Source: Neolewinella aurantiaca
Lineage (GTDB): Bacteria > Bacteroidota > Bacteroidia > Chitinophagales > Saprospiraceae
Assembly (NCBI RefSeq): GCF_008014675.1
Contig: NZ_VOXD01000001.1
Coordinates: 248,001 to 312,000 of the forward strand
Direction: 5' to 3'
Length of the DNA: 64,000 bases
Shown: positions 1 through 60,676 of the stretch, piece after piece
Position numbering within the stretch: the stretch's first letter is position 1
Layout: every line of letters starts with the position of its first letter
Translations under genes and position numbers: made by a program
Notes under the pieces: generated by a model
Told to the model about the DNA's origin: nothing
What the model saw: the letters and a program-made list of their open reading frames with translations, nothing else
Databases searched by the model: none

Positions 1-499
1 GCAGTAAAACCGCCGGGCTGTGCTTCCTGATTTTGCGGCGCAGGCTTTTGTGGTAGCCCGTCCGGATGGTGTCGAAGTCGGGGCTGAGATCGAGTACGAA
101 GTTAGTCCTGAGGCTCGTAGTGTACGGAGGGGGAACATCGGCCGCAACCACGTTTTCGGTAAGTGGCAGGACGAATGAATTCAATCCGGAGGGTAAGTTG
201 CCAAAAACATCGGGCACATCTCCGGGGAGCAGGTTCCCGAAGGGGCCGCATTGTTGCGTGAACGGCGGTCTTTGCACCTGCGGTCGCGCCTGGCTACTGA
301 ACGGGCGGCGCAAAGAAAAAGGCTCGCGGGGAAGGGCCATTACGGCCCGGTAGTCATCAAAAACCAAACCGTCCCATCTGCCCGGACAAACAGCATCGAG
401 CCACCACGAAAAACCATACGGAAGATAGGTCGGATCATCCGCCACCGCTTTATTCCAGCGTATGGTGTCTATTTCTCCATACTTGAGGTAGCTTACCAT
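1..499 (-). CDS. GNAT/FemAB-like acyltransferase, N-terminal part
   Basis: The minus strand is open from an ATG at 499 to the window edge, so the 3' end is missing. The visible 166 residues begin MVSYLKYGEIDTIRW and include SWWLDAVCPGRWDGLVFDDY, then MALPRE and a PFTQQCGPFG segment, and later YHKSLRRKIRK. This resembles the N-terminal half of Bacteroidota FemAB/GNAT-type acyltransferases, which carry a ..PFTQQLG.. segment. Repeat copy 272-290 lies in frame and encodes ARPQVQ directly before PPFTQQ, which looks like a short insertion in a loop. No alternative ATG is found upstream before an in-frame stop near 580. The family call rests on recalled motifs; that the frame is coding seems safe from its composition. 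Confidence 0.6.
   Translation of the reverse strand, partial: MVSYLKYGEIDTIRWNKAVADDPTYLPYGFSWWLDAVCPGRWDGLVFDDYRAVMALPREPFSLRRPFSSQARPQVQRPPFTQQCGPFGNLLPGDVPDVFGNLPSGLNSFVLPLTENVVAADVPPPYTTSLRTNFVLDLSPDFDTIRTGYHKSLRRKIRKHSPAVLL
272..290 (+). repeat. Bipartite 19-mer repeat, copy 1 (intragenic)
   Basis: TTGCACCTGCGGTCGCGCC, a perfect match to TTGCACCTGCG-N3-GCGCC. It lies inside the partial acyltransferase gene; on the coding strand it reads A-R-P-Q-V-Q in frame. Confidence 0.85.
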
Positions 500-655
500 C
501 TTGGGGGTCTGTAATGCTGTATTCCGCCAGCTGCGGTACCAATGTCTGTTGCAGCCTTGTCCCTTGCCTTCCAGGGATTAAGTGACCAGGGAGTGGTGCA
601 ACCCTGCCGGTCACATTGATCGGGGCAGCACCGGCCCGCTGCGAAATACTGGCAG

Positions 656-1075
656 CTATTCGGCAGCCAGGGCTTTACTTACATACTCGCGGTAGCGTAC
701 CTGCCGGTATTCCCGCCACTTCTCATAGTTCTTAGGAAACTTATTGAGCTCTCCCTTAAAGGTCTGGAATGGACGCGGACGTTTGAGGGCGTAGGTGAGG
801 GCTTGCCACAGTTCCTGATTACGTACGCGATCGGTGAAGTCTTTCATCACCTGAATAGCGTCTGGAGTGGGCATTCTCTCGATGTGAATATAAGCGTCGG
901 GATCGGTGGAAATATCCTGCATTATAGCTTCGAAAACTTCCGGATCGGCACGAACGTTACGCTCCGGGTCATCGGCAATCAGCATCCGTCCGTGTTCGCG
1001 GTGGATGTAGACTTCCATTCCCCGGCGAATAGCGGTAGCGGCTTCGTTGATTTCGGCGTCACTTAATTGGGCCAT
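656..1075 (-). CDS. UPF0158 family protein
   Basis: A 139-residue soluble protein of unknown function, matching UPF0158 (Pfam PF03682 by memory). The N-terminal part LSDAEINEAATAIRRGMEVYIHRE, a central acidic segment (DPEVFEAIMQDI, IERMPTPDAIQVMKDF) and the C-terminal pattern LTYALKRPRPFQTFKGEL followed by EKWREYRQVRYREY are typical of the family. It has no signal peptide or membrane segment. The gene stands alone, with a 520-bp gap upstream and the acyltransferase gene downstream on the same strand. The function of the family is not established, and nothing in the neighbourhood points to one. Confidence 0.85.
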   Translation of the reverse strand: MAQLSDAEINEAATAIRRGMEVYIHREHGRMLIADDPERNVRADPEVFEAIMQDISTDPDAYIHIERMPTPDAIQVMKDFTDRVRNQELWQALTYALKRPRPFQTFKGELNKFPKNYEKWREYRQVRYREYVSKALAAE

Positions 1076-1596
1076 TTTGGTTTTTGTTTAATGCTTTACG
1101 GGTAGTCGTTGTTTATGAGGATTGGGCACTCCGAAACAAGTCCGGATGCCAACGGGAGTCAGATGGCTTGCGCAAATATGCGTTCGTTTTGACCAACTGC
1201 CAAGTTCCGGGCCAATCCGTCCTGATATTTTTCTGCATTGTTACCTTACTCAAAGCAGTGAATTGCAAATATGGGGACTTTTACCTTAGAAAGGTTCGAA
1301 TTGGCCGTGATGACGCTGCACGCCATTTTTATTGTCGGTTACGGCTTTACAGTGCCAAAGTCAGTAAATCTGAATCAGTTGTTCCCCAACTTGCCCGCTC
1401 TGAGGCCGGAGACACCCTCTGCGCTGCCGCACAGGGATATAAAATTCTCAGATCCGGCGGATCGGAATTACAACAGGAATAGTATCAGGCAGGGTTTTGC
1501 AAGCAGGGGTTGTAACAGGAGGGAGTTGATAAAAACGCTACGCGTTTTATGTTGCAACTGCCAGTCTGTTTTAGCATCGCACTACACGCCCTGGTT
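1076..1596. other. Intergenic gap, no gene recognised
   Basis: Short open frames occur here (for example around 1084-1482 and 1271-1600 on +), but their translations are rich in Cys, Arg and Ser and look non-coding. The only structured element seen is the hairpin at 1532-1548 beyond the arginine decarboxylase gene. The rest presumably holds the promoter of the UPF0158 gene. Confidence 0.5.
1525..1550 (-). terminator. Rho-independent terminator of speA-like gene
   Basis: AAAACGC (1532-1538) and GCGTTTT (1542-1548) form a short stem with a TAC loop. Read on the minus strand the stem is followed by TTTTTATC, about 50 bp after the arginine decarboxylase stop codon. Confidence 0.5.
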
Positions 1597-2994
1597 TTAG
1601 TAGCCCAATATCTGCAGCATGCTCTCAGCGGTCTGCTTGGGGTGCAGAACCCGGTCTACAAGGTTTCCTTCTTCGTCGAGGTCGATGATGATGTGCTGAG
1701 GACTGGGGATCATACAGTGCTTGATGCCTCCGTAGCCGGATATATTGTCCTGGTAAGCACCGGTATGGAAGAAGCCGAGGTAGAGCTTCTCTTCGTCGGT
1801 TTCTTTGTTTACGGGCAGGTAAACCTGGCTTTCGTGAATTTCAGAGTTGTAGTAATCCGAGTTGTCGCAGCTTAGTCCTCCGATGTTGACACGGTGGTAG
1901 TTGTTGTCCCATTTGTTGATGGGCAGTAAAATGAAACGCTCACCGATGCCCCAGGCATCGGGTAGGGTAGTCATCAGGGAGTTGTCGATCATGTACCACA
2001 TCTCCGAGTCGTTCTGTTGCTTCTGCTCCAGGACGGAGAAGATGGTCGCACCAGACTCACCTACGGTATACTTGCCGAACTCGGTGTAAATGTCAGGTTC
2101 GGGTACTTCGATTTCTTCGCAGGCTTCAAGGATGTTGGAAACGATCTCCCGAACCATATACTTGTAGTCGAACTCAAAACCGAGGCTGTTCCGGATGGGC
2201 ATACCACCACCGATGTTGAGCGCGTGCAGTTGTTCACTCTCCTGTTTCAGAGCGCCGTAGAGTCTGACGGCCTTTTTCAGTTCGCCCCAGTAATAAAGGC
2301 TGTCTTTGATGCCCGTATCGACGAAGAAGTGAAGCATATGGAGTTCCAGCTTAGGGTTGTCCTTAATTTTTTCGTTGAAAAGCGGAATAACATCCGCGCC
2401 CCGAAGCCCAAGTCTGCTGGTGTAGAACTCGAAATTCGGTTCTTCCTCGGTTGCTACCCTGATTCCGATCTTGGCTTTTTCGTTTACGTGCTTAGAGTAG
2501 TAGTCGAGTTCGTGGGCGTTGTCGACTACGGTAATGAGGTTTTCAAAGCCATCGTTAATCAGGCCGGTGATGGCCTGCAGGTAATTGAGGGGCTTGAAAC
2601 CATTGCAGACAATGGTGATGTCTTTGGTGATTTTCCCACGTTCAAGAAGCCGCCTGATCAAATCTACGTCGTACGCCGAGCTGATCTCCAGCTGAACGCC
2701 ATGGTCCAGTGCTTCCTCTACAACGTGGGCGAAATGGCTGCTTTTGGTACAGTAACAGTAGTGGTACTTGCCGGAGTAGCCCTGGCTGCGCATAGCCCTG
2801 CGAAAAAGGTTTCTCGCTTCTTTGATCTTGCGGCCAATACTGGGAAGATAGGTAAGCTTCAGCGGTGACCCGTATTTCTTGATCAGGTGGATCAAGGGGA
2901 TATTATTGAAGGTAAGGTACCCGTTCTCCAGATCGAATCCGTTCTGGGGGAAATAGAAGGTTTGATCAATAAGATCAAAATACTTGTTAGCCAC
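1597..2994 (-). CDS. speA: Arginine decarboxylase (PLP-dependent, fold III)
   Basis: This 465-residue protein belongs to the alanine-racemase-fold (fold III) decarboxylases, which release CO2 from arginine to give agmatine for polyamine synthesis. The PLP lysine is K84 in the motif YCYCTKSSHF. The phosphate-binding Gly-rich loop is IGGGMP at 261-266, and the active-site cysteine segment is CDNSD at 376-380. The length and the N-terminal pattern DLIDQTFYFPQ..F match the roughly 460-residue Bacteroidota version rather than the roughly 630-residue E. coli SpeA. Diaminopimelate or ornithine decarboxylase is an alternative specificity within this fold. The protein is cytoplasmic. It is divergent from arfB across a 309-bp gap and is followed by a hairpin terminator. 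Confidence 0.8.
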   Translation of the reverse strand: MANKYFDLIDQTFYFPQNGFDLENGYLTFNNIPLIHLIKKYGSPLKLTYLPSIGRKIKEARNLFRRAMRSQGYSGKYHYCYCTKSSHFAHVVEEALDHGVQLEISSAYDVDLIRRLLERGKITKDITIVCNGFKPLNYLQAITGLINDGFENLITVVDNAHELDYYSKHVNEKAKIGIRVATEEEPNFEFYTSRLGLRGADVIPLFNEKIKDNPKLELHMLHFFVDTGIKDSLYYWGELKKAVRLYGALKQESEQLHALNIGGGMPIRNSLGFEFDYKYMVREIVSNILEACEEIEVPEPDIYTEFGKYTVGESGATIFSVLEQKQQNDSEMWYMIDNSLMTTLPDAWGIGERFILLPINKWDNNYHRVNIGGLSCDNSDYYNSEIHESQVYLPVNKETDEEKLYLGFFHTGAYQDNISGYGGIKHCMIPSPQHIIIDLDEEGNLVDRVLHPKQTAESMLQILGY

Positions 2995-3168
2995 CGGCGA
3001 TATCAGTTTTGCGGGGCGAAGATAGTCGCTGCAATCTTATCGGACTGTGTCCGGTCGAAAATTTGTTGGGGCCGTGGGGTTATCCGTCCAATGGTGTGAG
3101 GACAGGGGGCCAGGGACTCAATCCACCTGTCGCGTTGTGCTCCTGCTGTGAAGGCTGCAGGTGACAGG

Positions 3169-3187
3169 GGCGCGACCGCAGGTGCAA
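3169..3187 (-). repeat. Bipartite 19-mer repeat, copy 2
   Basis: The plus strand reads GGCGCGACCGCAGGTGCAA; the reverse complement is identical to copy 1, including the central GTC. It lies in the divergent gap between speA and arfB, 174 bp from the speA start (pointing towards it) and 116 bp from the arfB start. Confidence 0.85.
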
Positions 3188-3303
3188 TGGCGGTTGCGGA
3201 GGGGCAGGGTGCTCATCCGGTTTTGCCCGAAACTTATTCACCGAGCTAAACCATTAGGGAGTGTGCTGCTTTTTAAGAGCAGAGAGAATAACCGTAACAA
3301 CGT

Positions 3304-3705: not shown

Positions 3706-3755
3706 GTTTTACCACCTTCGTGAATACCGAAGGAACTACTGCTTTAACCGGGTTA

Positions 3756-3774
3756 ATGCACCTGCGGCCGCGCC
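3756..3774 (+). repeat. Bipartite 19-mer repeat, copy 3
   Basis: ATGCACCTGCGGCCGCGCC; one difference at position 1. It lies between arfB and the DUF2452 gene, 65 bp before the DUF2452 start and pointing towards it. Confidence 0.85.
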
Positions 3775-3839
3775 TCGTAACTTATTGTCTGCCGCGTCTT
3801 ATTCCCAACAATTTCAGCGCATAGCCGTTACTCAGCAAT

Positions 3840-6919: not shown

Positions 6920-6938
6920 GGCGCGCACGCAGGTGCAG
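6920..6938 (-). repeat. Bipartite 19-mer repeat, copy 4
   Basis: The plus strand reads GGCGCGCACGCAGGTGCAG. It lies between the lytic transglycosylase and GH3-like genes, 67 bp before the GH3 start but in the opposite orientation to that gene. Confidence 0.85.
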
Positions 6939-7005: not shown

Positions 7006-8490
7006 ATGAAGTCATACTTACTCAAGCCTTACGCGCATTTCGTCCGTCGTCAGGTTCGCAACGTTAGTGAGCGCGCAGTACTTGCGCAGCAGGAAACCAT
7101 GGGAGACCTGGTCAGAACCGCCCGCGACACCGCTTTTGGTAAAGACCACGATTTTGCCTCGATCAGAAATTACGACGATTTCAAAGCGCGCGTCCCCATC
7201 GGCGATTACGAGTACTTTAAGCCCTACGCCGACCGCATTAAAGCTGGCGAAAGAGACGTCAGCTGGGTTGGCCGACCCAAATATTTCGCCAAAACGAGCG
7301 GGACTACCAGCGGCGTAAAATACATCCCGCTCACCCGTGAGAGTATTCCGAATCACTTCGGGACGGCCCGCAATGCGCTGTTCAACTACATCGCCGAAAC
7401 GGGAAAGAGTAAATGGCTGGATGGCAAAATGATTTTCCTTAGTGGTAGTCCGGAAATGGACGAAACGAACGGCATCCTCACGGGCCGGCTATCCGGAATT
7501 GTAAACCATCAGGTTCCGGCCTGGCTGAGGACCAACCAGCTGCCCAGCTACGAAACGAACTGCATCGAAGACTGGGAGACCAAACTGGAGAGAATCGTCG
7601 ATGAAACCATCAACGCCGATATGCGCCTTATCTCCGGTATTCCACCTTGGGTACAGATGTACTACGAGCGCCTGCTGCAGCGCTCGGGAAAGTCTACCAT
7701 CCTTGAGCTCTTTCCCAACCTGGAAATGTTCGTCTACGGAGGCGTAAACTTCGAACCCTACCGGGATGCGCTGGAGGAGCTGGTCGGCGGCCGCATCCCC
7801 AGTGTTGAGACTTACCCTGCCAGTGAAGGCTTCATCGCCTTTCAGGACAGCCAGCACGAGGAGGGTTTATTGCTGAATGCAGATTCAGGCATCTTCTTTG
7901 AGTTCATCCCTGCCGGAGAAATCTTCGATGAAAACCCTACCCGACTCAGCCTGGGGCAGGTCGAAACAGGCGTTAACTACGCCATTATCCTGAATACCAA
8001 CGCCGGGCTTTGGGGTTACAACATCGGGGATACCGTTCGCTTTGTAAGTGTGGAACCTTACCGTTTGGTGGTCACCGGAAGGATCAAGCACTTCATCTCT
8101 GCCTTCGGCGAGCATGTTATTGGCAAAGAAGTGGAACTGGCTATGGCCGAAGCCGCTGCTAAACACAATGTTCGGGTTACTGAGTTTACGGTTGCTCCGC
8201 AGGTTTCACCTCCGGAGGGTGGGCTGCCTTACCACGAGTGGTTCGTAGAATTCGACCGTCCGCCGGTAAACGCAGAAGCTTTTTCCCGCGACCTGGATGC
8301 TGCGATGACCCGACAGAACATTTACTACCAGGACCTGATTAAAGGGGCCATCCTCAAACCGCTGGTAGTCTCCCCAACCAGAAGCGGTGCGTTCCGCGAT
8401 TACATGAAAAGTCAGGGGAAGCTTGGCGGGCAGAACAAGGTGCCACGGCTCAGCAATGATCGCAAAATAGCGGACGGGTTACAGCGGTAA
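7006..8490 (+). CDS. GH3 auxin-responsive-promoter-like acyl-adenylating enzyme
   Basis: This 494-residue protein belongs to the GH3 family, ANL-superfamily enzymes that activate carboxylic acids as acyl-adenylates and in plants join them to amino acids. The ATP-binding P-loop-like motif is SGTTSG at 98-103 in KTSGTTSGVKYIPLT. The second motif region is VETYPASEGFIAFQD (around 265-280). The hinge segment GYNIGDTVRFVSVEPYRLVVTGRIKHFISAFGEHV is near 340-375. Bacterial members are common in Bacteroidota, but their substrates are unknown. The length (about 500) is typical. It has no signal peptide and no operon partner. Confidence 0.85.
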   Translation: MKSYLLKPYAHFVRRQVRNVSERAVLAQQETMGDLVRTARDTAFGKDHDFASIRNYDDFKARVPIGDYEYFKPYADRIKAGERDVSWVGRPKYFAKTSGTTSGVKYIPLTRESIPNHFGTARNALFNYIAETGKSKWLDGKMIFLSGSPEMDETNGILTGRLSGIVNHQVPAWLRTNQLPSYETNCIEDWETKLERIVDETINADMRLISGIPPWVQMYYERLLQRSGKSTILELFPNLEMFVYGGVNFEPYRDALEELVGGRIPSVETYPASEGFIAFQDSQHEEGLLLNADSGIFFEFIPAGEIFDENPTRLSLGQVETGVNYAIILNTNAGLWGYNIGDTVRFVSVEPYRLVVTGRIKHFISAFGEHVIGKEVELAMAEAAAKHNVRVTEFTVAPQVSPPEGGLPYHEWFVEFDRPPVNAEAFSRDLDAAMTRQNIYYQDLIKGAILKPLVVSPTRSGAFRDYMKSQGKLGGQNKVPRLSNDRKIADGLQR

Positions 8491-10244: not shown

Positions 10245-11111
10245 TTGGCGGCCATCACAGCTTTCATTGGTGCCGGACTGCAGGCCCTGCTGGGAGACTT
10301 TCCGCTGAGGGCTCTCCTGTGGGACCAAAGCTGGTTTACCTGGTGGGCGCAGTTGCTGGGCTTCACCTGGTCAGAATGGGTTACCAGCCTGTCGGTCGAT
10401 CAAACCATCGATTGGCTCGGCAAATTATTCGGTGGCCTATTGCTCGTTGGCGGTTTGATACTTGTTTTCAGAACTAAAAAGTACCGGCTGGCCATACGTA
10501 TGCTGTTAATTGGAAGTGTTTTGGTTTTACTACTCCGGAATTTTCTCATTTGGAAAGAACACTTCTGGCAAATAGGCCAACTCCTGGAGATGTTCATTCT
10601 CACGGGAGCTCCTATCATTTATCTGACGCGAACAGCCTGGTCCGCAGGCAGTAAAGACTTGTTTCCGATCGTTCTCCGGTTACTCATCGCATGTACGTTT
10701 ATCGGACACGGTCTTTACGCGGTAGGCTTTCATCCCGTGCCGGCCAATTTTGTGTTTATGACTCAATCTGGTCTCGGGGTAGGAGAGGACTTGGCCCGGC
10801 AGTTGCTGAAAGTGGTAGGAATTCTTGATTTCGTAGCGGCGGCCTTACTGGTACTGCCCTCACGAAGAGCCTGGCTTACGGCGCTGGTTTGGATCATCCC
10901 CTGGGCGGTTTTAACAACCTTTGCCCGCGTCTGGAGTTACGGCGGCTACGTAGGAGCCCACACCCTGATTTCTCAGTGGATTCCGGAAGTGGTGGTGCGC
11001 CTGCCACATATTTTGTTGCCGCTGGCGCTCTTCTTTTTGGCGCGAACGCAGGATGTAGACACTGTTGGAGGCAAGGATAAAGCCAACGCAATTAGTACTG
11101 CATGTGACTAA
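10245..11111 (+). CDS. Polytopic membrane protein, unknown function
   Basis: I do not recognise the family, although the layout of helices is DoxX/TQO-like. From the TTG at 10245 the product has 288 residues with about seven to eight hydrophobic segments (for example LFGGLLLVGGLILVF, MLLIGSVLVLLLRNFLI, LTALVWIIPWAVLTTF, ILLPLALFFLA). The frame stays open upstream to a stop at 10131, and the extra 37 codons read as a plausible hydrophilic N-terminus (..AEEQTKQFPETGPGAEFIRLAA) but contain no ATG, GTG or TTG, so the true start is uncertain. Repeat copy 5 encodes ARTQDV right after the last helix. Confidence 0.6.
   Translation: MAAITAFIGAGLQALLGDFPLRALLWDQSWFTWWAQLLGFTWSEWVTSLSVDQTIDWLGKLFGGLLLVGGLILVFRTKKYRLAIRMLLIGSVLVLLLRNFLIWKEHFWQIGQLLEMFILTGAPIIYLTRTAWSAGSKDLFPIVLRLLIACTFIGHGLYAVGFHPVPANFVFMTQSGLGVGEDLARQLLKVVGILDFVAAALLVLPSRRAWLTALVWIIPWAVLTTFARVWSYGGYVGAHTLISQWIPEVVVRLPHILLPLALFFLARTQDVDTVGGKDKANAISTACD
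11039..11058 (-). repeat. Bipartite repeat, copy 5 (20-nt variant, intragenic)
   Basis: The plus strand reads GGCGCGAACGCAGGATGTAG. An extra A splits the GGTGCA arm, as in copies 12 and 20. It lies in the membrane-protein gene just after the last transmembrane helix and reads A-R-T-Q-D-V in frame. Confidence 0.55.
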
Positions 11112-11185: not shown

Positions 11186-11204
11186 CTGCACCTGCGCCCG
11201 CGCC
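11186..11204 (+). repeat. Bipartite 19-mer repeat, copy 6
   Basis: CTGCACCTGCGCCCGCGCC. It lies in the gap before glgX, 74 bp upstream of its start and pointing towards it. Confidence 0.85.
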
Positions 11205-15874: not shown

Positions 15875-15893
15875 GGCGCAAACGCAGGTGCAG
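15875..15893 (-). repeat. Bipartite 19-mer repeat, copy 7
   Basis: The plus strand reads GGCGCAAACGCAGGTGCAG. It lies in the divergent gap, 95 bp before the radical SAM gene start and 224 bp from the DUF151 start, pointing towards the latter. Confidence 0.85.
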
Positions 15894-19547: not shown

Positions 19548-21251
19548 ATGTATCTCCCTGCGGCTTTCATCTACAAAGATCTCAAAGAGGTTAAATTCCT
19601 CGATGATATAATTGCGGAATACCGCCCAACTGCCGATCCCTACCAGGTTTTTACCCATGAGTCGGGCAATAAGGTGATGAAGTACAGTATTGGTCAGGCG
19701 ATCATGTACTCGCCCTTCTTCGCCGTGGCGCACGCGTGGGCGTCATCAAGCGATGCTTACCCCGCTGATGGTTTCAGTTTTCCGTACCAGTTCATGATTT
19801 CCCTGGGGAGTCTGGTGGTCAGTTTACTGGGTTTGTTCTGGTTGATGACCGTCTTGCGGCATTATTTCAGGGAAGAAATGGTAGGGCTTACGTTGCTACT
19901 CATTGTTTTCGGAACCAATTACCTCAACTACTCGGCCATCGACGGTGCGATGACGCACAACAATGTTTTTAGCCTTGGGGCCTTGCTCTTATTAACCTCA
20001 CATCGCTTCTACGTCCGCGCCACCTTATCACGTGCGTTATTGATCGGGTTGTGCACCGGTCTGATGGCCCTGACCCGGCCCACCGAAATTATCGTAGCCA
20101 TCATTCCACTGTTGTGGGGACTTGACCTGACGCAGAAAGGCGCGATCAGCAAACGAATAGAGTTCTTCGGCTCACACTGGGGGAAACTTCTTGCGGCTGC
20201 CGCCGTCACCCTGGCGATTGGTAGCATTCAGGTTATATACTGGAAATACGTGAGTGGTGATTGGCTCGTGTACAGTTATCAGGATCAGGGCTTCGATTGG
20301 TTTAGTCCACACCTCAACAAAGGGTTCTTCAGCTATAAAGCCGGCTGGCTGATTTATACCCCGATGATGATCTTCGGCCTGCTTGGGTTCATCCCTTTAT
20401 ATAGGCGCAAACCGGCTCTTTTCCCGGCACTCTTTATCCATGCGTTGTTCTTCATTTACGTGGCCTTCAGTTGGTCTGTGTGGTGGTACGGTGGTAGTTT
20501 GGGACAGCGGACGATGGTGCAGGAATATGCCGTTCTTTCTTTTCCTCTGGCTGCTTTCTTGAGTTGGGTTTTCCGGGCGCGGCCGCAGGTGCAAAAGCCG
20601 GTTAGGTGGCAATGGTGGAAGTATGCTGTAGCGGCAGTTATCGCTCTTTTTACCTGGCACAATCTCTACTACACGCACCAGGCACACCGCGGCGGATTGT
20701 ACATTACCGAACAGATGAACAACGCTTACTTCTGGCGCACGCTCTACAAGTTCGAAAGAGACCCGGAGGATAAGCTCCGGCTCGATACCCGTGAATTCTT
20801 CACGGCAGTTCCCGCCAAAACGGAAACCCTGCTCAGCGATGATTTCGAAGACCGTTCTACCGCAGATTGTGGTTTGGACCCCATTAACGGCAACGGCTCC
20901 CTGTGCCTGATCGGGAAAAACGAAAATAGCCCGGAGTTCAGATTGGAAATCGACCTGCCGCCCCGTACCTGGCTGCGGGCCCGGGTACAGGCCAAAATCA
21001 ATGCTCCCCGGGGCAATAAAGACAACCACACCCAGATGATCCTTACTTTCCGCCGCGATGGGGTAGAGGTGAAAAAGCGGATCATCCGTATGCACCGCCT
21101 CCTCAATCACGAATGGCGCCGTGAGGTTCAGATCGATTCGAAAGTGCCGGATGAAGGCGCAGACCAGCTAATCGTCCGCTTTTGGAACGGAGGAAGCACA
21201 CAGCCAGCTCTGGTACTTGACGACTTGGTCATCGAGAGGATATACGAGTAA
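19548..21251 (+). CDS. Polytopic membrane protein, glycosyltransferase (GT-C)-like
   Basis: From the first ATG this is a 567-residue protein with about ten hydrophobic segments in the first 400 residues and a soluble, beta-rich C-terminal domain (about 430-567, LRARVQAKINAPRG..). The layout suggests a GT-C mannosyltransferase-like enzyme, but no catalytic motif was identified. Coding clearly starts earlier: the frame from 19389 reads ..KYALLICYFFIAVVHFAYYP, a transmembrane helix followed by NQEGAEATISYDVSGYYMYLP, yet no ATG, GTG or TTG exists there. Repeat copy 8 encodes RARPQVQKP in the loop between two helices. Confidence 0.6.
   Translation: MYLPAAFIYKDLKEVKFLDDIIAEYRPTADPYQVFTHESGNKVMKYSIGQAIMYSPFFAVAHAWASSSDAYPADGFSFPYQFMISLGSLVVSLLGLFWLMTVLRHYFREEMVGLTLLLIVFGTNYLNYSAIDGAMTHNNVFSLGALLLLTSHRFYVRATLSRALLIGLCTGLMALTRPTEIIVAIIPLLWGLDLTQKGAISKRIEFFGSHWGKLLAAAAVTLAIGSIQVIYWKYVSGDWLVYSYQDQGFDWFSPHLNKGFFSYKAGWLIYTPMMIFGLLGFIPLYRRKPALFPALFIHALFFIYVAFSWSVWWYGGSLGQRTMVQEYAVLSFPLAAFLSWVFRARPQVQKPVRWQWWKYAVAAVIALFTWHNLYYTHQAHRGGLYITEQMNNAYFWRTLYKFERDPEDKLRLDTREFFTAVPAKTETLLSDDFEDRSTADCGLDPINGNGSLCLIGKNENSPEFRLEIDLPPRTWLRARVQAKINAPRGNKDNHTQMILTFRRDGVEVKKRIIRMHRLLNHEWRREVQIDSKVPDEGADQLIVRFWNGGSTQPALVLDDLVIERIYE
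20576..20594 (-). repeat. Bipartite 19-mer repeat, copy 8 (intragenic)
   Basis: The plus strand reads GGCGCGGCCGCAGGTGCAA, a perfect match. In the membrane-protein gene it reads A-R-P-Q-V-Q between two transmembrane helices. Confidence 0.85.
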
Positions 21252-26451: not shown

Positions 26452-29400
26452 ATGCTTCGCATTCGTATGCTGGCCACCTTTATTGGCCTGCTTTTTTCCG
26501 TCGTTTTACCGGCGCAAACCACTGTGTCTGGTACCGTCATTGATGCTATTACTCAGGAACCGCTAATTGGGGCTTCCGTGTTGGCGCCCGAAGGGGCCGA
26601 CGTTGGATCCATTACCGATATTGACGGTAACTTCTCGCTTGAAATTCCGGAAGGCTCCAACCATCTCCGGATCAGTTATATCGGTTACAAGAGCCGTAAG
26701 TATAATCTGGGCGCGGCCGCAGGTGCAAAGGAAGGTTTGGTGATCGCTCTCCAACCGGGAACTTCGCTCGGCGAAGTGGTGGTTACGGCCCTTGGCCTTG
26801 AGCGGGACAACCGCGAACTCGGCTACGCCGTCCAGCAAATCGACGGTGAGGCACTGACCGACGTTCAGGCCGTCAACTTCCTCGATAACCTCTCCGGTCA
26901 GGTGGCTGGGCTGCAGGTTACTTCCGGCGCGACCGGGGTTGGTTCTACCAGCCAGATCGTCATCCGGGGGCAAACTTCGTTTACCAACAACAATCCGCTT
27001 TTCGTTGTCGACGGTACGCCCATCAACAATAATACTATCATCAACCTGACCAACGAGGATGCTTCCGGCTTCCAGGAAGTAGATTTCGGAAACGGTGCTA
27101 TGGACGTTAACCCCGCTGACATCGAATCCGTAAGTGTACTGAAGGGAGCTTCGGCAGCGGCACTTTACGGCACCAGAGCGGCCAACGGAGTTGTTCAGAT
27201 CACGACCAAATCCGGCGGACGGAAACAAGGGTTGGGCGTTAGCTTCAATTCCAGTTTCACGGTCGACAATCCTTTTCAGTTGCCACAACTCCAGAACACC
27301 TACGGCCAGGGGCAGGGTGGTCAGTTCGAATTCGTTGACGGCCTCGGCGCCGGAATTTCCGATAACATCACCTACAGCTACGGCCCTGAGCTCGACGCAG
27401 GCCTGAACATCGCTCAGTTCGACAGCCCGGTTACGCTGCCCGACGGCAGCGTTGTCCGGGGGGGCGACGTGGCCGTCCACGGTGGTTTGCCCATTACCCC
27501 AACCCCGTGGGTGAGCAACCCCGACAACCTGAAAGATTTTTACGAAACGGGAACCACAGCCATCAACAGCCTCGCCATCAGTGGTGGTGGTGATTTTGGC
27601 GATTTCAGACTCTCCGCGTCAGATCTTCGTTCCACCAGCTACATCCCGGGGGTAAATCTGAAAAGAAAAAATATCTCCGGAAAGTTCAGCTTTCGCCCGT
27701 CGGATAAACTCCGGGTGAACGCCAACATCAACTATATAAACACCAACTCCGACAACCGACCGGCTGCGGGCTACGGATCCGAAAACATCGGTTACAGTCT
27801 TACGGCCTGGTACGGCCGCCAGACGAATACCGAGAGCCTGCGTGATTACTGGCAACCCGGTCTGGAAGGAACACAGCAGTACAGTTTCAACTATACCTTC
27901 TTCGACAATCCTTTCTTCATCCTCGAGGAAAACCGCAACAGCTTCAACCGGGACCGGCTCTTTGGGAATGTTTCGGCGAGCTATGAATTCACCTCTACAC
28001 TAAAGGCTACCATCCGTACGGGCATGGACTACAGCAACGAGAAGCGCCAGTTCCTCCGCAACTTCAGTAGTAACCGCTTTACACAGGGCGGTTACGCTGA
28101 AAACGACGTACTCTACCGGGAAGTCAATACCGACTTTTTGCTCGATTACCGCCCCAACGTGGGAGGTGAAATTAGTGTAAACCTTCTTGTGGGTGGCAAC
28201 CGCTTCGACCAAACCGCTCAGAATACCCAGAGTCAGGCCCTCACGCTGGCCCAGCCGGGTATTTTCCGACTCAGCAATGCTGCCAGTCCCGTAGAAATCT
28301 TCGACCAGGTAGCAGACAAGCGAATCAACAGCGTTTACGGGCTGGCGAAGTTTGGCTACAAAGACTTTCTCTTTCTCGACGTGACGGGGCGTAACGACTG
28401 GTCTTCGGCTCTCGCTACGCCGACCAATGCGGACAACACGAGTTTCTTTTATCCTTCCGTAAGTCTGAGTTTCCTGCCCAAGCGCGTCTTTGACCTTCCG
28501 GATAACGTAAGCTTTCTTCAGTTGCGGGCCAACTGGGCTCAGGTGGGCAACGACACCGACCCTTACCGGACAAGTTCGACTTTCGTAGCTCAGACACCGT
28601 TTGGCGGCGAACCGACGTTCTCCGAACAAGCTGTACTGGCGGCGCCCGGTCTTGTTCCGGAGAAAACCACAAGTGCAGAAGCAGGCTTCGATGCCCGCTT
28701 CATCGACGACCGGATCGGCCTTGATGTAACGTACTACACCCAGACTACGGAGAACCAGATCCTGAGCCTGCCCGTTCCTTCTTCCTCCGGTTACAGCGAA
28801 CAAATCGTGAACGGCGGCAAAGTGAGCGCCAACGGCCTGGAGGCTGTCCTGAGCCTGCGTCCTGTCTGGAACAATAAGATCAAATGGACGAGCCGCTTCA
28901 ACTTCAGCACCAATAAAGCCACGGTAGATGAGTTGCCGGAGGGGACAGATCGTTTCACCCTGGCTTTCAGCCGGGTTTATAACTCGGTCAATCAGACGGT
29001 GTTCTTCATTGTTGAAGAAGGCGGTGAAATCGGCGACATCTGGGGAACGGGTTACCTCCGCAACGATGACGGCGACCTGGTCCTCAACTCTAGTGGTGGT
29101 TTCATCGAAGACAATAACCTGAAGAAGCTTGGTAATTCGAACCCCGACTTCATCCTCGGTTTCCAGAACAACGTCCGCTTCGGCAATTTCGACCTGGGCG
29201 TGCTGCTGGACTGGCGTCAAGGTGGAGAGTTGGTCTCACGTACCCTGGCGTTGGCCGGCGTTGCGGGACAACTGGAAGAAACGGAAAATCGTCCGGATGA
29301 TGGCTTTGTAATCGAAGGCGTCCAAAATACGGGCACAAGCGACAATCCTGTTTACACCCAGAACACAACTGCGGTCTCGGCCGAGAGCTTCTACCGCAGC

Positions 29401-29836: not shown

Positions 29837-29855
29837 CTGCACCCGCGTTCGCGCC
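29837..29855 (+). repeat. Bipartite 19-mer repeat, copy 10
   Basis: CTGCACCCGCGTTCGCGCC (one T to C change in the left arm). It ends 13 bp before the susD-like start and points towards it, so it is likely part of the mRNA. Confidence 0.75.
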
Positions 29856-31477: not shown

Positions 31478-32851
31478 GTGGTTGCACCTTTTGCCCGTAC
31501 CACTGCTCAGTTTTTCGGCGGCGCTAAAAAAGACCGGGCACCATCTACCATTGCTCTTATCAGCAGCCTCGTAATCAGTTGGTTGTTTGCCAAGTCGATC
31601 ACCAACGGCGCAAACCTTGGCCTGGCCTTCGGCCTGGTTGGTGGTGTAGCGTACGCTGCTTACTATTTCGGTTTTGCGGTTGCGGGCTGGGTGATTTACA
31701 GAATGCGGACCAAGGGCGGCTTCCGGAGTATTCATCATTTTCTTGAGACCCGTTTCGGGAAATCGGCGATGGTCGTCTTCTCGCTGCTGATCTGTTTTCG
31801 TTTGTTTAACGAGATTTGGTCGAACACGATGGTGATCGGTAGTTATTTTGGCGGGGTAGGGGACACGGCCTACTACGCCGCGATCCTGGTGTTTACCGGG
31901 CTGACGTTGGCCTACAGCCTGAAGGGAGGCATGTCTTCTTCGATCCTCACCGATGTGATTCAGATGGTCTTCTTCGGTATTCTCATTACGGTTATCTTAT
32001 TGGCCATCATGCCGCGGGTGGATTATGACGTAGCTCCCATCCTGACTTCGGGAGAGTGGACGTTAGCGACGGGAGGCAACCTCTTACTGGTGGCTATCCT
32101 CCAGAGTTTCAGCTATCCGTTTCACGATCCGGTGATGACTGACCGGGGGTTTCTGAGCGATCCCAAAACAACACTCAAGGCCTTCTTATGGGCTGCGCCG
32201 ATTGGTTTTGTTTGCATCATTCTTTTCAGCGTCGTTGGCATTTATGGTCAAATTGAAGGCGTGCAGGGTCAGGCACCGGTAGAAGTCGCTAAACTACTGG
32301 GCGGGCCTATTCTGTTGGTGATGAATTTCATTATGGTCACTTCAGCTGCCAGTACGCTCGATTCTACCTTCACCAGTTTTTCCAAGCTTGCGGTGATGGA
32401 TCTTGGCGTGGGTAAAACGGAGGCGCTGCCGCAGGTGCAACACCCGGTTTCGGAAGAGAACGGCACCGACGAAAAATCCGCTCCGCACTTTAGTGGCGGG
32501 TCCAAAAAAACGGTTACTGCCGGGAGGCTGGCGATGGTCACCATCACCGTTTTCGGTACTATTCCCGTGTTCCTCAATCCGGCGATACTCTCGGCGACCA
32601 CGATTTCAGGTGCAATGGTGGCCGGCCTTGCTCCCGTATTTTGTTTGTGGTGGGTTAAAGCACCACCGCTCAGCTTCTGGCTCTCTATCGGTTTTGGCTT
32701 ACTCTGTGGTTTTCTGCTCATCTTTGGCTCCTGGCCGGAATACCTGACGGTTTCTACCGGTAAATACGCTGACTTGCTGGGAGTTACGCTCGTGGAACTG
32801 GTCGGCTGTTTCGGCTTGTACCTCCTCCCGATGCTTTTCGCAAGAAAGTAG
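31478..32851 (+). CDS. Sodium:solute symporter (SSS family)
   Basis: A roughly 457-residue (or longer) SSS transporter with about eleven to twelve hydrophobic segments, for example IALISSLVISWLF, AYSLKGGMSSSILTDVIQMVFFG, and TSAASTLDSTFTSFSKLAV, the last being the conserved sodium-site helix. The annotated GTG start cuts the first helix: the open frame from 31400 reads LNLFIIENITFIQWLLVIASSLLLFVVAPFARTT but has no ATG, GTG or TTG, so the real start is unresolved. Repeat copy 11 encodes EALPQVQHP in a polar cytoplasmic loop (around 310-340). The substrate is unknown. Confidence 0.82.
   Translation: MVAPFARTTAQFFGGAKKDRAPSTIALISSLVISWLFAKSITNGANLGLAFGLVGGVAYAAYYFGFAVAGWVIYRMRTKGGFRSIHHFLETRFGKSAMVVFSLLICFRLFNEIWSNTMVIGSYFGGVGDTAYYAAILVFTGLTLAYSLKGGMSSSILTDVIQMVFFGILITVILLAIMPRVDYDVAPILTSGEWTLATGGNLLLVAILQSFSYPFHDPVMTDRGFLSDPKTTLKAFLWAAPIGFVCIILFSVVGIYGQIEGVQGQAPVEVAKLLGGPILLVMNFIMVTSAASTLDSTFTSFSKLAVMDLGVGKTEALPQVQHPVSEENGTDEKSAPHFSGGSKKTVTAGRLAMVTITVFGTIPVFLNPAILSATTISGAMVAGLAPVFCLWWVKAPPLSFWLSIGFGLLCGFLLIFGSWPEYLTVSTGKYADLLGVTLVELVGCFGLYLLPMLFARK
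32422..32440 (-). repeat. Bipartite 19-mer repeat, copy 11 (intragenic)
   Basis: The plus strand reads GGCGCTGCCGCAGGTGCAA, a perfect match. In the symporter gene it reads A-L-P-Q-V-Q in a polar loop between transmembrane helices. Confidence 0.85.
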
Positions 32852-33967: not shown

Positions 33968-33987
33968 CTGCATCCTGCGTCCGCGCC
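33968..33987 (+). repeat. Bipartite repeat, copy 12 (20-nt variant)
   Basis: CTGCATCCTGCGTCCGCGCC; an extra T splits the GCACC part, as in copies 5 and 20. It is intergenic and ends 18 bp before the terminator hairpin at 34006. Confidence 0.65.
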
Positions 33988-36773: not shown

Positions 36774-36973
36774 GAGAGTCGGGAGTAATGAGTCTGGAGT
36801 CTGGAGTCGGGAGTCGCGCGTATGACAGCGACTCCAGACTCCCAACTCATTACTCCCGACTCATTACTCCCGCCCCATTCCCGCGAAACGAGAGCACCTG
36901 CGGCAGCGACTCCCGACTCAAGACTCCCGACTCCCAACTCCAGACTCCAGACTCCCAACTCCCGACTCATTAC
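36774..36973. repeat. Degenerate heptamer repeat block with long inverted repeats
   Basis: The whole 200-bp gap between the convergent lepB and GMC genes is built from AGTCTGG/AGTCGGG-type heptamers on the left (36776-36817) and their complements (GACTCCC, GACTCCA, ACTCATT) on the right (36828-36973). An 18-bp perfect inverted pair is GAGTCGGGAGTAATGAGT (36776-36793) with 36845-36862, and the inner 8-bp pair GGAGTCGC/GCGACTCC (36810-36817/36828-36835) surrounds a 10-nt loop. The repeat reaches the stop codons on both sides. It looks like the short tandem repeats described in cyanobacteria (STRR-like), and could act as a two-way terminator. Confidence 0.85.
36892..36910 (+). repeat. Bipartite 19-mer repeat, copy 13 (degenerate)
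   Basis: GAGCACCTGCGGCAGCGACT-like: GAGCACCTGCGGCAGCGAC, with three changes at the ends but an intact CACCTGCG-N3-GCG core. It is embedded in the heptamer repeat block. Confidence 0.5.
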
Positions 36974-38655: not shown

Positions 38656-38674
38656 GGCGGGGTCGCAGGTGCAG
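38656..38674 (-). repeat. Bipartite 19-mer repeat, copy 14
   Basis: The plus strand reads GGCGGGGTCGCAGGTGCAG (one change in the right arm). It lies 69 bp upstream of the GMC gene and points towards it; it forms an outward-facing pair with copy 15, exactly 100 bp away. Confidence 0.8.
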
Positions 38675-38755: not shown

Positions 38756-38774
38756 TTGCACCTGCGACTGCGCC
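38756..38774 (+). repeat. Bipartite 19-mer repeat, copy 15
   Basis: TTGCACCTGCGACTGCGCC, a perfect match, followed by seven A. It lies 66 bp before the mutS2 start and points towards it. Confidence 0.85.
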
Positions 38775-41329: not shown

Positions 41330-42889
41330 TTATTCAGCCGCAATTTCGCTTACCCGGTCCGGGTAGTTGGTGATGAAACCGTCGATTCCCAGGTCGAGCA
41401 GGTTGCGGATATCCTGGTGTGTGTTCACCGTCCAGGCGTAGATTTTCAGGTTGGCATCGTGCATTGTTTTGACGGATTCTGGGTTGAGACTACCCTTATA
41501 GGCATTGATGGAGAATGCCTTGATTTCCTTCGCCAGCTCAAGCGCAGCAAGGGGCGAACCATGGGGGAGAATTCCTATTTCGACCTGGTCGTTTAGCTGA
41601 CGCATCGTTTTAAGCTGGTCGTGCCGAAAGCTTGAAATATGGAAGTCCTCGATTTTCCAGCCGCGGTTATCAATGAAATCCCGGATGATGCGGTAGGTTG
41701 GCTCCGCGGTGCCTGGTCCTTTGAGTTCAATGTTGAGGCGCAGTTGCTTATCCATGACCTTCATCGCATCACTCAGCAGTGGAATGCGGGATCCGTCGGC
41801 TAAAGTTAACTGATTGAGTTCGGAAAGGGTGTAGTCCGCAATTTTGCCGTTTACACCGGTGAGCCTTTTCAGGTCACTGTCATGAAAGCAGACAACATTG
41901 CCGTCCTTCAGAGCGAAGACGTCGAGCTCGATCATGTCGGCATCGAGTTCGACGGCTTTACGGAAGGCCGCGAGGGAATTCTCGAGGGCGTAACCACTGG
42001 CTCCCCGGTGGGCAACAATAACCGGGCGCGGGCGCGGGTGCACAGTGGCGATTACGGGGAAGTGGTCGCTGGCGAAGCGTCCGTCGATTGCGTCGGTGAG
42101 GGTCGCGTAGCGAAGCACTTCGGTCCGGGGAGTCGATGAGGCAAAAACATAGTCTATCCGTCTGGTCGCCGGTTGACCGTACCGGAAACCGGTGAAGGTG
42201 CCCGATGGCCCGAGCCTGACCGAAGCGGCGTCGTGGGTATCCGTCATTTTGGCCCGGAATTTTTGGATGGGTTCGGAATCGGGCTCGAGGTTAAAATCTC
42301 CGGTTACGAAGTAGGGGACCTGGTCCTTGTTCAGCGAGTCGACCATGCGTAGAATCAGGTCTGCGCTTTGGGAGCGGGCCAGTTCGCCCACGTGGTCGAA
42401 GTGGGTATTGAAGACTATGAACTCATCACCGTTGCTGCGGGGTTGCAGCCGTACCCAGGTACATATCCGGTTCAGGGCTGCGTCCCATCCTTTAGAAATC
42501 TCAGCGGGTGTTTCGCTGAGCCAGAAAGTTCCGGAATCGGTTACGCTGAATTTATGGCGGTTGTAGAATACGGCGGAATACTCGCCGCGGTCACCGCCGT
42601 CGCGCCCCTGGCCGACGAAGCTGTAAGCGGATAGATGCTCGTTGAGCCACTTAACCTGCTCTGGCAATCCTTCCTGAGTACCGATCACGTCCGGTTGGTG
42701 GTAATTGATCTGGCTGGCAAGGAACGTTCGTCGTTCGGGCCAGGCATTTTCGCCGTCGCTGGCAACGTTCAGACGGATGTTGTAGCTCATTACCGATAGG
42801 GGCTGTGTATCGGGAACCTTGCTTTGCACCTGCGTGTGCGCCCAGCTGCAGCCAAGCGTAAGGAGGAAGAGGAGAATGAGTTTGGGCAT
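41330..42889 (-). CDS. Exported endonuclease/exonuclease/phosphatase-GDPD fusion
   Basis: A 519-residue two-domain hydrolase. After the signal (MPKLILLFLLTLGCSWA) comes an endonuclease/exonuclease/phosphatase (EEP) domain, about 25-275: SVMSYNIRLN, VIGTQEGLPEQ, FNTHFDHVG, FVTGDFNLEP and SDHFPVIA. Then a glycerophosphodiester phosphodiesterase (GDPD) domain, about 285-519: VIVAHRGASGYALENSLAAF, MIELDVFALKDG, VCFHDSDLKRLT and the end YAWTVNTHQDI..DGFITNYPD. It may strip head groups or phosphates from phospholipid-derived substrates in the envelope. Repeat copy 17 sits at the signal/mature boundary (A-H-T-Q-V-Q) and copy 16 at the domain junction (V-H-P-R-P-R-P). The frame is open further upstream, but 42889 starts the signal peptide. 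Confidence 0.87.
   Translation of the reverse strand: MPKLILLFLLTLGCSWAHTQVQSKVPDTQPLSVMSYNIRLNVASDGENAWPERRTFLASQINYHQPDVIGTQEGLPEQVKWLNEHLSAYSFVGQGRDGGDRGEYSAVFYNRHKFSVTDSGTFWLSETPAEISKGWDAALNRICTWVRLQPRSNGDEFIVFNTHFDHVGELARSQSADLILRMVDSLNKDQVPYFVTGDFNLEPDSEPIQKFRAKMTDTHDAASVRLGPSGTFTGFRYGQPATRRIDYVFASSTPRTEVLRYATLTDAIDGRFASDHFPVIATVHPRPRPVIVAHRGASGYALENSLAAFRKAVELDADMIELDVFALKDGNVVCFHDSDLKRLTGVNGKIADYTLSELNQLTLADGSRIPLLSDAMKVMDKQLRLNIELKGPGTAEPTYRIIRDFIDNRGWKIEDFHISSFRHDQLKTMRQLNDQVEIGILPHGSPLAALELAKEIKAFSINAYKGSLNPESVKTMHDANLKIYAWTVNTHQDIRNLLDLGIDGFITNYPDRVSEIAAE
42025..42043 (-). repeat. Bipartite 19-mer repeat, copy 16 (intragenic, domain junction)
   Basis: The plus strand reads GGCGCGGGCGCGGGTGCAC (two changes). 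It encodes the linker V-H-P-R-P-R-P between the EEP and GDPD domains. Confidence 0.65.
42824..42842 (+). repeat. Bipartite 19-mer repeat, copy 17 (intragenic, signal boundary)
   Basis: TTGCACCTGCGTGTGCGCC, a perfect match. On the coding strand it reads A-H-T-Q-V-Q at the signal-peptide/mature boundary of the EEP-GDPD protein. Confidence 0.85.
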
Positions 42890-47149: not shown

Positions 47150-48121
47150 ATGATAGAACTCAACCCATTAAGTCAGCCACCAAATCAGGCCGATCTGCTG
47201 CTTACCCACGAAGCAATTCAGCCGTTCATACACCGGACGCCGGTGATGACCAACGCCAGCCTCGACCGGATGAGTGGGTGCAAACTGCTGTTCAAGTGTG
47301 AGAATTTTCAGAAAATAGGAGCCTTCAAAATGAGAGGGGCTGCTTCTGCGGCGCTGCGGCTTTCTGCCGCCGAGCGGGAACGTGGTTTAGCTACGCACAG
47401 CAGTGGGAACCACGCACAGGCAGTAGCCATGGCGGCAAAAAAACTTGGGGTGCCGGCCTACATCGTGATGCCCCACGATGCGCCGAAGGTCAAGATCGCT
47501 GCGGTGGAAGGTTACGGTGCTCAGATCAGCTACTGCGTAAACACGCCCAAAGACCGTCAGGAGGCATTGGATAAAGTGGTTGAAAAAACCGGGGCTGCGT
47601 TTATTCATCCGTTCGATGATTACGGCGTCATTGCCGGGCAGGCAACGGCGGCGATGGAACTGATCGAGGATACACCGGGGATCGTGCTCGACCTTATCCT
47701 CGCCCCCGTTGGGGGCGGTGGGCTGATGGCCGGAACTGCGCTGGCCTCCCGCTACTTCAGCGTCCAGGCAGAGGCCTGGGGAGCAGAGCCACACAATGTA
47801 GATGATGCGGCGCGATCGCTGGTGCAGGGGTCGGTTCAGATAAACGAAACCAATGAGACCGTCGCCGATGGCCTGCGGACTAACCTGGGTGAAAAGACCT
47901 TTGACATTATTTATAAGCGCGTTCCCCGGATTCTGATCGTCGATGAAGACGAAATTGTGGCCGCAATGCGCCTCATCTGGGAACGAATGAAGATTATCGT
48001 TGAACCAAGCTGCGCGGTGCCATTTGCTGCGGTGCTGCGTTATCCGGAGTTGTTTGCAGGCAAAAATGTGGGCATCATCCTGACCGGAGGAAACGTAGAC
48101 GTGGTCGGCTTACCGTTTTAA
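47150..48121 (+). CDS. Threonine/serine dehydratase-like PLP enzyme
   Basis: A 323-residue fold-II PLP enzyme. The Schiff-base lysine is K60 in FQKIGAFKMRGAASA; the substrate loop is SSGNHAQAVA; the phosphate loop is VGGGGLMAG (near 184-192); and the C-terminal EPSCAVPFAAVL and LTGGNVDV are typical. Length and lack of an ACT domain fit serine racemase or catabolic threonine dehydratase rather than the biosynthetic IlvA. Either isomerisation of L-serine or deamination to 2-oxo acid is possible. No signal peptide. No pathway partner is nearby. Confidence 0.87.
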   Translation: MIELNPLSQPPNQADLLLTHEAIQPFIHRTPVMTNASLDRMSGCKLLFKCENFQKIGAFKMRGAASAALRLSAAERERGLATHSSGNHAQAVAMAAKKLGVPAYIVMPHDAPKVKIAAVEGYGAQISYCVNTPKDRQEALDKVVEKTGAAFIHPFDDYGVIAGQATAAMELIEDTPGIVLDLILAPVGGGGLMAGTALASRYFSVQAEAWGAEPHNVDDAARSLVQGSVQINETNETVADGLRTNLGEKTFDIIYKRVPRILIVDEDEIVAAMRLIWERMKIIVEPSCAVPFAAVLRYPELFAGKNVGIILTGGNVDVVGLPF

Positions 48122-48197: not shown

Positions 48198-48217
48198 TGG
48201 CACCTGCGTGCCGCGCC
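48198..48217 (+). repeat. Bipartite repeat, copy 18 (4-nt spacer)
   Basis: TGGCACCTGCGTGCCGCGCC; one change in the left arm and a four-base rather than three-base centre. It is intergenic, 161 bp before the subtilase start and pointing towards it. Confidence 0.65.
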
Positions 48218-50066: not shown

Positions 50067-50085
50067 TGCGCGGACGCAGGTGCCG
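50067..50085 (-). repeat. Bipartite 19-mer repeat, copy 19
   Basis: The plus strand reads TGCGCGGACGCAGGTGCCG (changes at the outer ends). It directly abuts the T tract of the subtilase terminator. Confidence 0.65.
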
Positions 50086-56113: not shown

Positions 56114-56132
56114 TTGCACCTGCGACCGCGCC
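56114..56132 (+). repeat. Bipartite 19-mer repeat, copy 21
   Basis: TTGCACCTGCGACCGCGCC, a perfect match. It is intergenic, 97 bp upstream of the amylase start and pointing away from it. Confidence 0.85.
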
Positions 56133-57721: not shown

Positions 57722-57879
57722 GGTTGGTTGTTTGTTGGTTTTTCGTAATTGTTGACGCCCTGTATGACGTTTCCTATCCCAAAGGGAACAACATGAAAAC
57801 GTTAAGCGCGGGCGCAAATGTCGTTAATGGAAGCTTAAAAAAGAAAGATTCCGGAGAGGCAGTGCAAATTGAGCCTCCT

Positions 57880-57926
57880 CTACTTAAAATGCCCGCCCCA
57901 CCATTTTGTTCGGCTGGGCGGGCATT
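57880..57926 (-). terminator. Rho-independent terminator of gyrA
   Basis: AATGCCCGCCC (57888-57898) pairs with GGGCGGGCATT (57916-57926) over 11 bp with a 17-nt loop; it lies 45 bp after the gyrA stop. The trailing T tract is weak. Confidence 0.7.
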
Positions 57927-57970
57927 ACGTTGTGTCGGCAGCGGGTCACCGCTGCTGAAGAGAGCCTGGT

Positions 57971-60529: not shown

Positions 60530-60567
60530 ATTTTTTTATCTGGTATCTAAATCTTTTGCAGTATTTT

Positions 60568-60586
60568 GGCGCGGCCGCTGGTACAG
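60568..60586 (-). repeat. Bipartite 19-mer repeat, copy 22 (degenerate)
   Basis: The plus strand reads GGCGCGGCCGCTGGTACAG (three changes from the consensus). It lies 38 bp upstream of gyrA and points towards it. Confidence 0.6.
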
Positions 60587-60657
60587 GGATCGTTGAAAGC
60601 CAGGGTAGAAAGAGCCAGCGTTAAACTGGCGGAGACTACCATGCTCTTCAACCTTTT

Positions 60658-60676
60658 TTGCACCTGCGTCAGCGCC
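60658..60676 (+). repeat. Bipartite 19-mer repeat, copy 23
   Basis: TTGCACCTGCGTCAGCGCC, a perfect match. It lies 144 bp before the thioredoxin-fold lipoprotein start and points towards it; with copy 22 it forms an outward-facing pair. Confidence 0.85.

Follow-up and report, generated by a model that had tools for sequence, protein, structure and literature searches.

To our knowledge, two lineages are known to encode self tags for DNA uptake in their genomes, the Neisseriaceae with their DNA uptake sequences (DUS) and the Pasteurellaceae with their uptake signal sequences (USS), both of which use type IV pili. Uptake sequences are fairly evenly spaced and originate by substitution, not by insertion; the USS has its own core letters and AT tracts on one side. 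Two other kinds of short repeats invite comparison: REP/REPIN elements, which are short, dispersed, mostly intergenic, found in inverted pairs and connected with RAYT (Y1) transposases, and HIP1 of cyanobacteria, an 8-bp palindrome that is highly iterated in coding and non-coding DNA. Here we analyze a motif, GCACCTGCG-N3-GCGCC, that is dispersed over a 64-kb stretch (hereafter the window) of the 5,995,659-base, 104-contig genome of Neolewinella aurantiaca. Its abundance, polarity, placement, even spacing, restriction to one genus, dialects and the equal length of coding sites with and without it match the uptake sequences of Neisseriaceae, which suggests that it works like such a tag. On this analogy, we see about an even chance that the motif is a genus-specific self tag resembling a DNA uptake sequence; as far as our searches show, it would be the first uptake-like tag in the Bacteroidota.

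According to the portions available of PMC2397512 and PMC3630211, DUS of Neisseriaceae reach about 900 to 5,900 copies per genome, diverge into species dialects, one of which carries an inserted base (wadDUS), and also occur as inverted pairs, all of which resembles the situation described below. The genic share of neisserial DUS is 34 to 42% (Table 1 of PMC2397512), compared with 44% here, and permissive positions are used in both cases. In contrast to DUS, whose sequence is unrelated and which are counted as 10-mers, the motif consists of a core of about 20 bp with flanks; it occurs about once per 3.3 kb instead of once per 1.1 to 1.5 kb, and its inverted pairs are typically tens of bp to more than 100 bp apart, whereas those of DUS lie within 21 nt of each other in terminators. 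The DUS receptor is a type IV pilin, whereas no pilus ATPase was found here. The USS shares with the motif the combination of a core with AT-rich flanking tracts; it is spaced at about 1 kb, and its uptake uses a type IV pilus (PMC7811141, as far as available). Its core is a different one, and the motif differs from it in having A-rich segments on both sides. REP/REPIN elements are likewise short, dispersed, mostly intergenic and present as inverted pairs; here, however, the single unit has no obvious internal palindrome, copies in coding DNA come without length change, and copy number is not tied to the number of Y1_Tnp matches. HIP1 is likewise repeated very many times inside and outside coding DNA, but it is a palindrome of 8 bp, whereas the motif is long, polar and evenly spaced.

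Abundance, anatomy and placement of the motif

The exact core GCACCTGCGNNNGCGCC occurs 880 times in the genome, whereas the reversed pattern, serving as control, yields 0 matches; the motif is thus more frequent than composition would give, a comparison that had been proposed in a preliminary description of the window. The lack of strand bias reported there also holds for the whole genome (436 and 444 copies on the two strands). A sample of 842 kb, drawn from five contigs and equal to 14% of the genome, was analyzed in detail. With up to two mismatches, it contains 253 copies, compared with 13 in reversed sequence. A position weight matrix trained on copies with at most one mismatch from these 842 kb, the window included, recovered 246 sites at a score of at least 16 (reversed: 0) and 275 sites at a score of at least 6 (reversed: 8); intermediate scores are few, which indicates a discrete class of sites. 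By extrapolation, the whole genome holds about 1,750 copies, approximately one per 3.3 kb. At a score of at least 16, 500 kb each of N. lacunae and strain IMCC34191 gave 128 and 69 sites, respectively, with 0 in both reversed sequences. A core scan of N. lacunae found 149 matches and 24 in reversed sequence, and because of this noticeable background the weight-matrix count is preferred.

The motif spans about 45 bp and comprises the core TTTGCACCTGCG[T/G]CCGCGCCC, AAAAC upstream and an A-rich tract downstream. The consensus of 141 intergenic copies is TTT-GCACCTGCG-[T/G]CC-GCGCC(C), with a C at -4; their upstream flank is weakly C/T-rich from about -20 to -14, followed by AAAAC at -12 to -8, and the A-rich tract extends from +19 to +24. 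Similarity had been thought to stop at the ends of 19 bases, but conservation, weak though clear, surrounds the core from about -20 to +24. Nor is the three-base center as free as it had seemed: among 147 copies with up to two mismatches, its second and third bases are C at frequencies of 73% and 78%, so the center is only partly free, and in N. lacunae it is mostly GCC.

Among the 253 copies, 141 are intergenic and 112 (44%) lie in genes, the latter divided equally between sense and antisense orientation (56 each). Copy density is 1.12 per kb in intergenic DNA vs 0.132 per kb in genes past their first 120 nt. It is similar in co-directional (1.03 per kb), divergent (1.35) and convergent (1.06) intergenic regions, which indicates that the motif is bound to neither promoters nor terminators. 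Antisense copies occupy frames 0, 2 and 1 with 27, 28 and 1 copies, the avoided frame reading R-x-R-R-C; the corresponding counts for the second dialect, that of IMCC34191 (see below), are 14, 2 and 2. The intergenic excess and the preferred reading frames correspond to the permissive positions typical of uptake sequences.

The regularity of spacing was evaluated after merging copies within 300 bp, by 500 simulations that preserved gene structure. The coefficient of variation of the spacing was 0.672 in the own genome (simulated 0.915 +/- 0.06) and 0.625 in N. lacunae (simulated 0.929), with 0 of 500 simulations as low in either case; for IMCC34191 it was 0.772 (simulated 0.995), with 12 of 500 as low.

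Distribution in Neolewinella and dialects

The congeners compared include N. persica, N. agarilytica, N. lacunae, N. antarctica, N. marina, N. litorea, N. xylanilytica, N. aquimaris and Lewinella strains. Exact own-type copies were counted in 18 of them, G001 to G018 (G003 88% and G010 55% complete), leaving out G030 and G031; the counts are 0, 820, 639, 11, 786, 1176, 17, 480 and 114 in G001 to G009 and 434, 3, 110, 59, 624, 167, 59, 22 and 675 in G010 to G018. The same exact count found no own-type motif in 11 genomes of other genera. When a stricter pattern was applied to 119 genomes of the order, three Neolewinella genomes gave 425, 364 and 12 matches and two other genomes one each; the remaining 114, which include 10 genomes from nine other genera within the family, gave no match.

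IMCC34191 (G001), the genome with 0 own-type copies, shows over-representation of the word ACCTGCGCTCCGCCGCC. This second dialect, ACCYGCGCTCSGCSGCC, has 184 matches in IMCC34191, 3 in the genome of the window and 0 to 28 in the other 19. In N. lacunae, further words such as AACTCCATG occur frequently.

The mutS2 gene of the window has a full-length match in 18 of 20 congeners (68-93% identity); the exceptions are G018, with two partial pieces, and the incomplete G010, with only a distant paralogue. In a midpoint-rooted tree of this one gene from 19 genomes, G010 and G018 being excluded, the species with at least 167 own-type copies form one clade, joined by N. antarctica, for which there is no own-type count, and every genome in which the second dialect exceeds 6 copies falls into the other clade. 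The motif is thus clade-restricted with species dialects, another trait of uptake sequences. Several mutS2 genes (L021-L028) have recurrent GGAACTATC..GTTAG-like words ahead of the start codon, which may be a promoter.

Copies in the window and their counterparts in relatives

In the window, TTGCACCTGCGNNNGCGCC has 20 matches with up to three mismatches, compared with a mean of 0.87 and a maximum of 4 in 100 shuffled sequences. The weight matrix, at a score of at least 6, finds 23 sites, 11 on the plus and 12 on the minus strand, exactly the number and strand split reported before. The 15 copies formerly considered intergenic are 14 according to our gene calls, which come from a simple predictor made for this analysis and place the other 9 in predicted genes. 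The copies are listed below; they were recovered by both mismatch scan and weight matrix unless another basis is given.

272..290, plus: motif copy in a predicted gene (antisense)
3169..3187, minus: motif copy, intergenic
3756..3774, plus: motif copy, intergenic
6920..6938, minus: motif copy, intergenic
11039..11057, minus: weak copy (score 7.8) in a gene; weight matrix
11186..11204, plus: motif copy, intergenic
15875..15893, minus: motif copy, intergenic
20003..20021, plus: weak copy (score 11.1) in a gene; weight matrix
20576..20594, minus: copy in gene 19548-21251 (antisense)
26710..26728, minus: copy in the 1080-aa open reading frame (ORF) 26452-29694 (antisense)
29837..29855, plus: copy between ORFs 26452-29694 and 29869-31305
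32422..32440, minus: copy in a variable-length linker of gene 31478-32851; mismatch scan, weight matrix and relatives
33969..33987, plus: spacing variant (TGCATCCTGCG..); weight matrix
38656..38674, minus: left member of a '- +' pair between a GMC oxidoreductase gene and mutS2; scan, genes by Pfam
38756..38774, plus: right member of this pair, upstream of mutS2; mismatch scan
42025..42043, minus: copy in gene 41330-42889 (sense)
42824..42842, plus: copy in gene 41330-42889 (antisense)
47809..47827, minus: copy in gene 47150-48121, gap-free in relatives without the motif; comparison with relatives
48198..48217, plus: weak spacing variant with one extra base (score 7.3, spacing shifted by one base); weight matrix and relatives
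50067..50085, minus: copy, intergenic by the gene model, located where the longest frame of this region begins
56114..56132, plus: motif copy, intergenic
60568..60586, minus: left copy of a '- +' pair, upstream of a gene that Pfam assigns to gyrase A/topoisomerase IV
60658..60676, plus: right member of this pair

By reading rather than by profile search, ORF 26452-29694 appears SusC-like, judged from its size and neighborhood, and gene 47150-48121 appears threonine dehydratase-like. The stretches with the spacing variants at 33969 and 48198 have matches at many places in relatives. A degenerate tandem repeat with a 14-base unit (GACTCCCGACTCCC..) at 36816-36999 surrounds a poor motif match at 36892.

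Orthologous loci, whose mapping had been suggested in the preliminary description, were compared where the flanks could be aligned to within 25 nt, a filter that only coding sites passed. At all six of these sites (10 site-relative pairs), relatives without the motif (at least three mismatches) have a sequence of identical length; one of the six is an exact own copy. Under stricter terms (own copy with at most one mismatch, relative with at least four), 4 of 4 coding sites are of equal length. Judged from these alignments, motif copies in genes seem to arise by substitution. At two coding sites where both partners carry the motif, neighboring linkers differ in length. Among unfiltered sites, the motif is retained despite changes in flank length at 29837 (N. 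persica, L109, has the same junction copy), 38656, 48198 and 42824; the last is kept in the relative L064 with length differences in both flanks, and what appeared there as an 82-nt deletion at 42826 is actually flank turnover. At 38758, the motif is absent in G008.

Downstream flanks are shared with other intergenic copies in 4 of 141 cases in the own genome, 3 of 87 in N. lacunae and 0 of 36 in a third set. For upstream flanks, the respective figures are 21 of 141, 35 of 87 and 0 of 36, and for motif-free intergenic controls 19 of 206, 15 of 98 (N. lacunae) and 0 of 88. The upstream sharing stems in part from the paired cores themselves and in part from a hairpin subfamily in N. lacunae, in which a CCCCCC..GGGGGG hairpin lies directly upstream of several copies that are alike over about 39 bp (L082-L086, L183-L202).

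A possible uptake tag and its alternatives

If the motif is a self tag, we infer a receptor, an uptake bias and a recombination drive that would act as follows. A sequence-specific DNA-binding receptor would recognize the polar motif of about 45 bp, with its GC-rich core of about 20 bp and its A-rich flanks, during DNA uptake; tagged fragments would be favored and would then recombine back into the genome. Point mutations that create or improve a tag would spread and accumulate on both strands at permissive positions, whether between genes, in reading frames that tolerate them, at the ends of signal peptides or in variable linkers, and eventually a fragment of a few kb would in most cases carry a tag. 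A change of the receptor would let species drift to other dialects, and copies would be lost where uptake stops. Of the possibilities raised in the preliminary description, protein recognition and an uptake-like sequence have gained by the high information content of the motif, its presence on both strands, its even spacing, its dialects and the substitutions at coding sites, whereas the mobile element also considered there has not.

The machinery gives a less clear picture. ComEC was detected in 21 of 21 genomes and the helix-hairpin-helix domain HHH_3 in 20 of 21; being present whatever the abundance of the motif, they do not discriminate. A type IV pilus ATPase (PF00437, PilB/PilT) was not found in the 21 genomes, in a search that did not extend to secretins and pilins. 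Partial PF00437 hits exist in 20 of 21 genomes, with at most about 85 residues and 25.5 bits, 11 of the 21 genomes just exceeding the family cut-off; these were rejected as pilus ATPases, one of the proteins being a Clp-type AAA+ ATPase when scanned with Pfam and three more looking alike by eye. The receptor would thus differ from those of DUS and USS systems, and we do not class the motif as either. That it is an independently arisen uptake signal of the Bacteroidota, with a receptor other than type IV pilin and at least two dialects in one genus, has in our estimate slightly less than an even chance. Riemerella, also a member of the Bacteroidota, is naturally competent and requires proteins annotated as ComEC, DprA, ComF and RecA together with four that are unlike known machinery (PMC8459023, available in part), so that members of the phylum could plausibly be competent even if they lack a standard type IV pilus; pilus-type homologues in Flavobacterium are discussed in a second Riemerella paper (PMC7965970, likewise available in part). 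Among the papers listed in our literature searches, there was no description of the motif or of an uptake sequence in Bacteroidota and no paper on competence in Neolewinella.

Besides the uninformative ComEC and HHH_3 and the missing pilus ATPase, several observations weigh against an uptake tag. Neighbors within 300 bp are predominantly in '- +' order, 21 of 26 in the own genome and 14 of 19 in N. lacunae, a geometry that would not follow from an uptake model. Of these pairs, 10 of 21 and 9 of 14, respectively, have their members separated by 65-105 bp, the upstream tails pointing toward each other. Such pairs are a minority of all copies, and the excess is absent in IMCC34191 (1 of 4 neighbors within 300 bp). 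The longest motif-free gaps contain ordinary-looking genes by eye and so give no evidence for a depletion in foreign DNA. No comparable over-represented word was seen in samples from three other genera (G020, 100 kb; G029, 60 kb; G019, 33 kb); G028, with 17 kb, was left out. Finally, the variable linker that contains copy 32422 has no counterpart in N. lacunae, and at most unfiltered window sites, which are mainly intergenic, the distance between the flanks differs among relatives, no intergenic site having passed the filter, so that intergenic copies may have arisen by insertion. As to the gaps, one at G000:C8:9156-20813 is motif-free over 11.7 kb with no predicted gene wholly inside, and possibly represents one very long open frame.

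The main rival, which we consider unlikely but take seriously, is that the copies are sites of a genus-specific chromosome-organizing protein (nucleoid-associated, condensin-loading or similar) that requires a site at intervals of a few kb; the sites would then be kept by selection for regular coverage, and drift of the protein would make the dialects. Even spacing, the discreteness of the motif class, the balanced strands and the missing pilus ATPase would all agree with this, and the '- +' pairs fit a dimer or bridging protein; however, it is difficult to see an essential organizer behind exact copy counts that range from 0 to 1,176 in 18 congeners, selection would have to act on more than 1,000 sites, 44% of them inside genes, and known organizer sites are far fewer and regional. 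The same pairs could also be complete inverted-repeat elements, and the single copies their halves, if the motif were a very small mobile element of the REPIN type or like a miniature inverted-repeat transposable element (MITE). In several N. lacunae pairs the inner tails are complementary by eye, and this species shares upstream flanks more often than its motif-free controls do; the linker around copy 32422 is missing there, and intergenic flanks vary in length. We nevertheless regard a mobile element as improbable: all six coding sites are gap-free relative to motif-less relatives, downstream flanks are hardly ever shared, the spacing is even, and the second dialect shows no excess of pairs. 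Moreover, Y1_Tnp matches (0-7 per genome, present in 20 of 21) bear no relation to copy number, G018 having 0 matches and 675 copies, G006 2 and 1,176, and G001 4 and 0. Carriage by phages was likewise not favored; a single scan of IMG/VR gave one match in each of 32 contigs.

A regulatory or RNA element, such as a promoter, operator, terminator or riboswitch, might account for the enrichment in intergenic DNA and for those '- +' pairs that flank terminator-like hairpins by eye, but is very unlikely in view of the similar density in all three intergenic classes, the share of genic copies with antisense equal to sense, the hundreds of copies and the lack of an Rfam match in the window. Even less, indeed hardly any, probability attaches to a codon string for signal peptides (..CTCVRAQ) that is conserved as protein and mimics a DNA motif. 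Twenty-three of the 253 copies are in sense orientation within the first 120 nt of a gene; 17 of these share one frame, and 16 of the 17 resemble signal-peptide ends by eye (e.g. LLLTFFCTCVRAQ, ..CTCVRAQ). In the low-copy N. aquimaris (G017, 22 copies), 5 of 21 copies inspected resemble signal peptides, most others lying in longer open frames, and some of the copies left in low-copy species can be attributed to signal peptides. As a general cause they were rejected on placement: most copies are intergenic or antisense, intergenic copies also show the conserved flanks, and signal peptides explain only about 6-7% of the copies. CTCVRAQ-like signal-peptide ends are encoded by the core in many proteins, e.g. 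at L003 726 and L004 15861.

Were the motif a self tag, it would serve as bait for the missing receptor at the outer-membrane step of uptake in this phylum, and the congeners, whose copy numbers run from 0 to 1,176 and one of which has switched its dialect, would form a comparative series for the spread of a tag. If the motif instead serves chromosome organization, a regular lattice of sites about 3 kb apart would be no less surprising.

Two repeats unrelated to the motif were seen in locus L009 (G000:C1:160001-180000). A 50-bp repeat at 17476-17525 recurs at more than 20 places in G003 with about 84% identity, and a repeat of about 60 bp at 8128-8187 has G003 matches that fall on the same places for both strands (93-94%) and occurs in G008 as well; it is probably palindromic.

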